Assembly (NCBI RefSeq): GCF_024494575.1 | Contig: NZ_JANHDO010000003.1 | Span: forward strand, 248,001-312,000 | Reading direction: 5' to 3' | DNA length: 64,000 nt | DNA from: Halorubrum salinum | Lineage (GTDB): Archaea; Halobacteriota; Halobacteria; Halobacteriales; Haloferacaceae | Part shown: in pieces, positions 23,549 through 24,632 of the stretch | Layout: each line of letters opens with the position of its first letter | Position numbering within the stretch: position 1 is the first letter of the stretch | Program-made: the position numbers and the translations under genes | Notes under the pieces: model-generated | What the model was told of the DNA's origin: nothing | Seen by the model: the letters and a program-made list of their open reading frames with translations, nothing else | Databases searched by the model: none

Positions 23549-23992
23549 CTACGTCGTCTCTTCGACCCCGATGACGACGCCGGAGCGGATCTCCAGCGCG
23601 GTCTCGAACTCCTCGCGAGCCCGGCCGTCTCCGCCGACGCGGACGACGGCGGCCTCGTGCGCCCGAACGACGGCGTCGCGCTCGCGGTCGTCGAGGTCCA
23701 ACCGCTCGGCGATCGACTCCCAGTGATCCGGTTCGACGAGGAACGCCTCGCGGTCCGCGTCGGCGGCGATCCGCTCGTACCGCCGCCGGTACGCGTCGAT
23801 CCGCGGACCGAGATCGGCTTGCACGCGCGCGAGCAGTTCGGGGAGCCGCGACGCGGGAACGCTCGCCAGCGCCGCCGACGTGACGAGCGCCGCCCCCTCG
23901 ATTGGGTAGGAGTCCGCCGACGCGCCGCCGTCTCTTCGTCCGTCCGTCCCGCCCCCCTCGCCCGGTCGCTCCGCCCCCTCGTCGCCGGACAT
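23549..23992 (-). CDS. Conserved haloarchaeal hypothetical protein, last gene of the SAMP-like operon
   Basis: 147-residue acidic protein with a disordered N-terminus (Gly, Glu, Asp) to about residue 28 and a helical core rich in Arg and Glu (LPELLARVQADLGPRIDAY onward). I do not recognise a domain. Its ATG overlaps the stop codon of the preceding gene, indicating translational coupling. A GTG one codon earlier is an alternative start. Confidence 0.7.
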   Translation of the reverse strand: MSGDEGAERPGEGGGTDGRRDGGASADSYPIEGAALVTSAALASVPASRLPELLARVQADLGPRIDAYRRRYERIAADADREAFLVEPDHWESIAERLDLDDRERDAVVRAHEAAVVRVGGDGRAREEFETALEIRSGVVIGVEETT

Positions 23993-24354
23993 CACCCGCC
24001 GGCCCGCATCGCTTTCTTGCGGTACGCGGGAAGCAGTTCGGCGAGAGCGTCCGGGTCGCCGGCGAACTCGGCGGTCACCTCGGTGAGCGCGATCGAGCCG
24101 GCGGCGGTGACGCGGTCCGCACGAAGCGCCGCGCGCCAGCCGTCGCCGTCGACCCGGGTCGCCTCGGCGGGATCGTCGGTTCCGACGAGTTCACCGCCGA
24201 GGTTGACGAGGTAGTGGGCGGCGAGCCGGCGCGAGATGCCGCGGTACGCGACGGTCTCGCGCTCCCATCCCGGCTCCGCGGTCGGGGCGTCGTCGGCGGC
24301 GTCGCCGTCGTCGGGCCCGTCCGTCTCGCCCGCTCCTCCGGCCGCGTCCGTCAT
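23992..24354 (-). CDS. Hypothetical protein coupled to the SAMP-like gene
   Basis: 120-residue protein: acidic, low-complexity N-terminus to about residue 28, then a compact domain with YRGISRRLAAHYLVNLGGE and a C-terminal AYRKKAMRAGG. Function is not recognised; similarity to C-terminal domains sometimes fused to MoaD was considered but is only an impression. Its ATG overlaps the stop of the ubiquitin-like gene (GTATGA), and its own stop overlaps the next gene, so all three are one translational unit and may act in the same pathway. Confidence 0.7.
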   Translation of the reverse strand: MTDAAGGAGETDGPDDGDAADDAPTAEPGWERETVAYRGISRRLAAHYLVNLGGELVGTDDPAEATRVDGDGWRAALRADRVTAAGSIALTEVTAEFAGDPDALAELLPAYRKKAMRAGG

Positions 24355-24632
24355 ACCCCACCCGCGACCGGCGGGAACACGGAGAGCCGGTCGCCGTCGT
24401 CGAGCGGCGTGTCGAGCCCGTCGAGGTGGAGCACCTCCCGTCCGTTCTTCAGGACGTTGATCTGCGGAGCCAACTCCCCGTCGACGACCAGTCGACCGGC
24501 CATCCCCTCGTACTCCGCTTCTAACTCCCGTAACACGTCGCCGACGGTCGAACCCTCGCTGAACGACGCCTCGACGGTTTTCCCGCCGGCGGCCTCGCGG
24601 AACGTGGCGAAAAATCGCAGTTCGAGGTCCAT
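24351..24632 (-). CDS. MoaD/ThiS-like ubiquitin-fold protein (SAMP3-like)
   Basis: 93-residue beta-grasp protein resembling haloarchaeal small archaeal modifier proteins, closest in my memory to SAMP3 (HVO_2177). Such proteins are adenylated at a C-terminal Gly-Gly by the E1-like UbaA and are conjugated to lysines or used as sulfur carriers, for example for molybdopterin. Typical features are FFATFREAAG at the start, NVLKNGREVLHLDGLDTPLDDGD, and FPPVAGG near the end. The reading frame adds one valine after GG (residues 91-92), so the chain ends GGV. The gene overlaps the following ATG. Confidence 0.88.
   Translation of the reverse strand: MDLELRFFATFREAAGGKTVEASFSEGSTVGDVLRELEAEYEGMAGRLVVDGELAPQINVLKNGREVLHLDGLDTPLDDGDRLSVFPPVAGGV

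Follow-up and report, generated by a model that had tools for sequence, protein, structure and literature searches.

The SAMP3-type ubiquitin-like protein (Ubl) encoded in the window, a 64,000-nucleotide stretch of Halorubrum salinum DNA, carries a single valine beyond its terminal Gly-Gly, and we consider it quite probable that the protein is made as a precursor and matured by a JAMM desampylase. Judged from the genes, blocked Ubls are a trait of the lineage, with SAMP2 and SAMP3 extending past the diglycine at every locus read in the genus and SAMP1 doing so at most loci. The SAMP3 tail is a lineage trait and not a chance oddity, and its setting is larger than the earlier note on this DNA supposed, the valine being one case of a genus-wide pattern.

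The SAMP3 gene and its C-terminal end

The gene comprises the following features, given in window coordinates.
24351-24632, minus strand: SAMP3-type beta-grasp Ubl of the ThiS/MoaD family, 93 aa, ending FPPVAGGV (ORF translation, Pfam, NCBIfam and PDB match)
24354-24362, minus strand: Gly-Gly-Val codons, with a predicted cut after the second Gly (sequence)
24351-24356, minus strand: GTATGA, in which the SAMP3 stop overlaps the ATG of the partner gene at 24352-24354 (sequence)

The earlier note had described a SAMP-type Ubl ending in GGV, and the translation of this frame bears it out. The Gly-Gly codons occupy 24357-24362, the valine codon GTA 24354-24356, and the stop TGA 24351-24353, so that the overlap with the next ATG is exactly as that note had read it. 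The protein matches Pfam ThiS at 68.3 bits (cut-off 22.5), which places it in the ThiS/MoaD family, and its residues 86-92 form FPPVAGG, the SAMP/MoaD-type C-terminal motif FPPVxGG, followed, as in a Ubl precursor, by a residue past the conserved GG. It also matches the NCBIfam model NF041918, named 'SAMP1', at 108.2 bits (cut-off 60); as the SAMP1 of the same genome scores 127.5 bits, this model cannot separate the two.

The best solved relative is 2m19, which aligns at 133 bits over residues 1-92, carries the PDB title 'Molybdopterin converting factor subunit 1', and is taken here to be Haloferax volcanii SAMP3 (HVO_2177). The two share the beta-grasp family and FPPVAGG, but the 2m19 sequence stops at GG, whereas the Halorubrum protein adds a valine and its relatives carry longer tails or fusions. 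The solved Haloferax sequences of SAMP1, SAMP2, and 2m19 have no tail of their own past GG, and their extra residues look like cloning residues.

An assembly error or frameshift can be ruled out as the source of GGV because relatives share the same ATGA arrangement. The host genome is 2.73 Mb and 99.86% complete. A plasmid search returned nine records, one of them matching the greater part of the query as two segments that lie over different features.

SAMP3 ends across the genus and the order

SAMP3 was read in 207 loci, of which 177 were distinct once identical pairs had been removed and near-identical relatives kept. Among the 150 places listed by the search of the order, 30 already had loci, 100 and later 3 more were fetched, and 17 were left out. 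The genus sample consisted of 35 loci from 35 of 52 genomes, including the host. Twenty-nine of these carry one to three residues past GG, and in the other six the reading frame continues into the gene that follows; a bare GG end was found in none of the 35 loci read. The earlier note had proposed aligning orthologues to see how often a residue follows GG, and the answer extends beyond the genus, with 82 of the 177 distinct loci capped and 26 fused. Where the partner gene was found downstream (149 of 177), 76 loci are capped, 47 end exactly at GG, and 26 are fused; where no partner lay in the fetched stretch, 6 are capped and 22 end exactly at GG.

The motif itself hardly varies. It reads FPPVAGG in 176 of the 177 distinct loci and FPPIAGG in one, regardless of what comes after, and its integrity in capped and fused proteins suggests that the diglycine is probably still in use. 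Single-residue caps are Ala (20 loci), Thr (7), Ser (4), Arg (4), Val (1), and Gln (1), which makes the gene studied here the only one of the 177 with a lone valine. In H. saccharovorum (L061), SAMP3 reads GGGGT. A small residue (Ala, Gly, Ser, Thr, Cys, or Val) stands directly after GG in 63 of the 82 capped loci and in 24 of the 26 fused ones against a background of 41%, in counts that include related sequences and ignore shared descent. In the fusions, whose linkers span 8-52 aa, Asp or Glu occupies the first position after GG in 1 of 26 cases versus 213 of 693 positions farther along. For CsRpn11, an enzyme other than the desampylase, Glu directly after GG or Trp one residue farther on is reported to stop cutting, whereas Gly directly after GG is reported to speed it (PMC6043591). 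Arginine follows GG in 8 of the 82 capped loci, and it does so too in the CysO-like protein described below, which fits the small-residue pattern poorly and counts against a reading by precursor cleavage.

Among genomes with genus codes, fusions occur in five genera with JAMM and in one without. In a tree built from 144 partner-bearing loci (149 are distinct, but a strict motif filter missed five), the fused label needs at least nine changes, of which well-supported branches force only one, and the fusion of SAMP3 to its partner likely arose repeatedly. A structure model of one fused relative (pTM 0.49) places the GG (residues 91-92) within a stretch of pLDDT below 50 (residues 88-105), which is compatible with an exposed cut site.

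Tails on the other GG-type Ubls of the genome

Four GG-type Ubls were found in the genome and all are tailed: SAMP3 (GGV), SAMP1 (GGCAD), SAMP2 (GG followed by 16 aa), and a CysO-like protein (GGR). The relevant features outside the window are as follows (host genome G000).
Contig C4, 208182-208430 (L275 1501-1749): SAMP2 orthologue with a tail after KGG
Contig C1, about 415-419 kb (L003, L116): cluster of a PALP-type enzyme, the CysO-like Ubl (GGR), UbaA, and desampylase
Contig C1, 418291-418716: JAMM/MPN+ desampylase by NCBIfam NF041370, 153.4 bits (cut-off 130)

The SAMP2 of the host ends in GG plus STDRPAQSHAATGDDA (16 aa). Across the genus, SAMP2 is tailed in all 30 loci read (the best 30 of 49 matches), with tails of 5-25 aa whose first residue past GG is small in 30 of 30. 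For SAMP1, 20 matches together with that of the host gave 21 loci, of which 15 are tailed and 6 end in bare GG, the latter speaking against the precursor reading. Thirteen of the tails have four residues, for example SVGR, and the other two have three and eight; the first residue past GG is again small in all 15. The CysO-like gene adjoins a PLP-dependent enzyme of the cysteine-synthase type (PALP), and the cluster that they form with the desampylase and UbaA genes is similar to the CysM-CysO-Mec system of mycobacteria.

Short residues after GG that a protease removes are familiar from the bacterial ThiS-like systems QbsE/QbsD and HcyS/HcyD and from human UBC, which itself ends in GGV. In eukaryotes, most Ubls start out as precursors, whereas Urm1, a relative of the SAMPs, is described as being made mature without protease cleavage (PMC12625751).

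The open reading frame overlapped by the host SAMP2 gene encodes a GNAT acetyltransferase, a pairing of Ubl and GNAT that Makarova and Koonin list (PMC2948915). A further ThiS-family protein of the genome, 159 aa long, ends in Cys-Cys (L004 1483-1962), a kind noted as arCOG00539 in the same source.

A candidate protease and its distribution

The desampylase detected by NF041370 provides the genome with a candidate GG-specific protease, as a Ubl precursor would need, and UbaA, the E1, is encoded near it (NF047750, 476.2 bits, cut-off 450). Published work supplies the activity. HvJAMM1 cuts a linear SAMP1-MoaE fusion in vitro precisely after the terminal Gly, and cleavage of this fusion in vivo depends on HvJAMM1 (PMC4443979). 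CsSAMP precursors are processed by CsJAMM and the ubiquitin precursor by CsRpn11 (PMC6043591), and Caldiarchaeum pro-ubiquitin is refractory to E1 activation until cut (PMC5654768). The likeness to the Caldiarchaeum precursors lies in residues past GG that JAMM-type proteases remove there (PMC6043591, PMC5654768). The difference is that the Caldiarchaeum ubiquitin tail has 9 aa, whereas here a one-residue SAMP3 cap, whose removal is predicted, stands beside three other tailed Ubls, across a haloarchaeal genus.

It is also conceivable, although unlikely, that a general carboxypeptidase or another peptidase trims the tail and that JAMM acts only in deconjugation. One-residue caps would suit a carboxypeptidase, but SAMP2 tails of up to 25 aa and whole-domain fusions require an endoprotease that halts at GG, an activity that the published JAMM possesses (PMC4443979, PMC6043591). 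Another peptidase gains some ground from a 44-aa SAMP3 tail (G058) and a fusion (G066) in genomes in which JAMM was not detected, and from a second Prok-JAB protein of the host that lies outside the desampylase model. The gene for that protein overlaps a cytidylyltransferase-like gene (L117 1345-1893 and 884-1357), and a pairing of this type is a candidate Ubl system according to Makarova and Koonin (PMC2948915). The host also encodes a second ThiF-family E1 at C4:230765.

Among 293 genomes of the order, 204 gave a desampylase-like JAMM, a count in which several listed matches contain an in-frame stop, including that of a genome with fused SAMP3 (G033). SAMP3 was read in 150 of the genomes. 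Of the 127 JAMM-positive ones, 68 have a cap or fusion and 59 a bare GG; for the 23 JAMM-negative ones, the numbers are 2 and 21 (Fisher p 5.6e-5), 20 of these 21 having been fetched for this comparison. Counted by genus, the figures are 23 of 43 versus 2 of 6 (p 0.42, not significant); of the six JAMM-negative genera, four have bare GG and two do not. The two JAMM-negative exceptions, G058 and G066, are assemblies that are 81 and 59% complete. The association is not independent of descent, and it is consistent with maturation by JAMM without amounting to proof. As a predictor of tails, the presence of JAMM is weak, given the 59 JAMM-positive genomes with bare GG and the genus-level result.

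A scan of the 293 genomes for PPV[AS]GG gave 110 ends that were not exact and 91 exact in JAMM-positive genomes, and 7 and 32 in JAMM-negative ones, one TGG-ended hit (G118) being tallied as not exact. When eight odd hits were opened (five of the seven JAMM-negative ends that were not exact and three JAMM-positive ones), their frames were unlike a Ubl, and our conclusions therefore rest on the loci read individually.

Proposed maturation of SAMP3

SAMP3 is known to become attached to proteins (PMC4500146, PMC4443979), among them MoaE at K240 (PMC4443979). In the pathway that we propose, the C-terminal valine would block the diglycine, leaving UbaA unable to adenylate SAMP3 before it is cut. 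A protease, most likely the JAMM/MPN+ desampylase of the genome, would then cut after GG, and in a SAMP3 fused to its TBP-like partner, this one cut would set the two proteins free. The published cutting of tails and fusions by JAMM (PMC4443979, PMC6043591) and the inertness of uncut pro-ubiquitin (PMC5654768) establish the mechanism in kind. Two factors probably favoured the spread of the tails, namely a resident JAMM that renders them harmless and the translational coupling of adjacent genes.

The earlier note had left two possibilities side by side, processing by a metalloprotease or no conjugation at all. The intact GG, the four tailed Ubls, the genes for desampylase and UbaA, and the published JAMM activity together favour the first over the second. 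If JAMM does mature these proteins, a strain with tails on all of its SAMPs should lose sampylation and the sulfur-carrier functions once jamm is deleted, the opposite of what would follow if JAMM only deconjugated. The natural series of bare GG, one-residue cap, long tail, and fusion also offers material for studying how Ubl precursors originate.

The TBP-like partner

The two genes that follow SAMP3 are as follows.
23992-24354, minus strand: partner P0002, 120 aa, an acidic N-terminal stretch and a TBP-like domain, ending KAMRAGG
23549-23995, minus strand: uncharacterised third gene, 148 aa from GTG, overlapping the partner stop (GTGATG)

The earlier note did not mention that the product of the downstream gene also ends in GG, or that relatives fuse it to SAMP3. 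The partner ends in bare GG at all 149 distinct loci, with KAMRAGG at 141. P0002 has no Pfam or NCBIfam match, and a sequence search of the PDB gave nothing credible (best E 0.06). Its structure model (pLDDT 86.8) superposes on the C-terminal domain of Thermus thermophilus 1V8C with VIA Z 11.3 and an rmsd of 1.7 over 81 aligned residues (chain 85-165), ahead of the next entry at Z 7.7; in Foldseek, its best match reached E 1.5e-3, none lying at 0.001 or below. On the model, P0002 folds like the C-terminal half of 1V8C. Pfam DUF1952 gave no match for P0002 and matched 3 of 16 relatives weakly (best E 0.016), and P0002 is accordingly classed as having the same fold and not as a member of DUF1952. 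The 1V8C protein likewise has a MoaD domain with an internal FPPVAGG followed by a domain of the partner fold, but there they form one chain, whereas here two overlapping genes encode them and only some relatives have them fused.

In Halobacteria, a GG-ended protein of TBP-like fold that neighbours a MoaD-like Ubl has been described as arCOG06308, and proteins of this type have been proposed as Ubl analogues (Makarova and Koonin 2010, PMC2948915). P0002 shares the TBP-like fold, the terminal GG, and the MoaD-like neighbour, and it likely belongs to this family. Within the open-access literature and the available portion of that paper (PMC2948915), we met no description of Ubl tails after GG or of SAMP3 fusions.

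The constancy of this pairing raises the question of whether SAMP3 is here neither conjugated nor thiocarboxylated and functions in its capped form, for instance as a subunit bound to the TBP-like protein. The partner lies downstream in 149 of the 177 distinct loci, is fused in 26, and keeps a free GG of its own, and 1V8C offers the precedent of a two-domain protein with an internal FPPVAGG. We nevertheless regard this as very improbable, since a diglycine kept intact in capped and fused loci is hard to square with an idle one, and since SAMP1 and SAMP2 of the genus are tailed too; were all of them idle, no carriers would be left for MoCo and tRNA thiolation.

A single cut could turn each in-frame fusion into two GG-ended proteins, or the fusions could stay whole as two-domain proteins. 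A bolder extension of maturation by JAMM, which we offer only tentatively and consider rather doubtful, is that sampylation in this lineage runs on blocked precursors, with JAMM serving both as entry maturase and as exit deconjugase. The fused SAMP3-partner would then be a two-modifier precursor from which one cut gives two GG-ended proteins, the TBP-like one being a second carrier, outside the beta-grasp fold. The TBP-like GG protein is thereby indicated as a candidate second modifier that can be tested.

Neither Pfam nor NCBIfam gave a match for the third gene at E 0.01. Proteins like its product occur after the partner in some relatives, and it is possibly arCOG06307 or arCOG06309.

The stop/start overlap

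The ATGA overlap accompanies the SAMP3 caps closely. It is present at the stop in 28 of the 29 capped genus loci, 27 of which have a partner that starts at this ATG, and across all capped ATGA loci, the partner reads from the ATG in 52 of 53. Among the 47 exact-GG loci with a partner, six have GGATGA at the stop, and the partner reads from it in five. With the overlap in place the last codon must be NNA, which allows GGA, and the overlap therefore does not force an extra residue; as a necessary cause of the valine, it is ruled out by these five loci. Each SAMP2 tail in the genus ends in a GTGA overlap with the next open reading frame (30 of 30 loci), although GGG-TGA would provide that GTG start without any tail. 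Neither an ATGA nor a GTGA overlap was found at the SAMP1 tails of the genus (15 tailed of 21 loci). As the genes read, overlap and tails coincide in two of the three SAMPs, neither requiring the other. The tie between extra codon and overlap drawn in the earlier note thus stands insofar as the overlap dictates the form of the last codon and recurs throughout SAMP2, and fails insofar as GGA-TGA suffices and SAMP1 has tails with no overlap.

That the valine is a neutral by-product of the four-base overlap, tolerated by the E1, gains from these ATGA and GTGA frequencies and from the wide variation of the tail sequences, but it seems scarcely likely when a bare GG can serve either start codon, and does so for ATG in five loci, when SAMP1 tails lack the overlap, and when uncut Caldiarchaeum pro-ubiquitin is not activated (PMC5654768).

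At six loci (L188, L217, L172, L170, L193, and L207), SAMP3 ends in GGA-TAG and the ATG of the partner follows in frame, with a single stop between the two.
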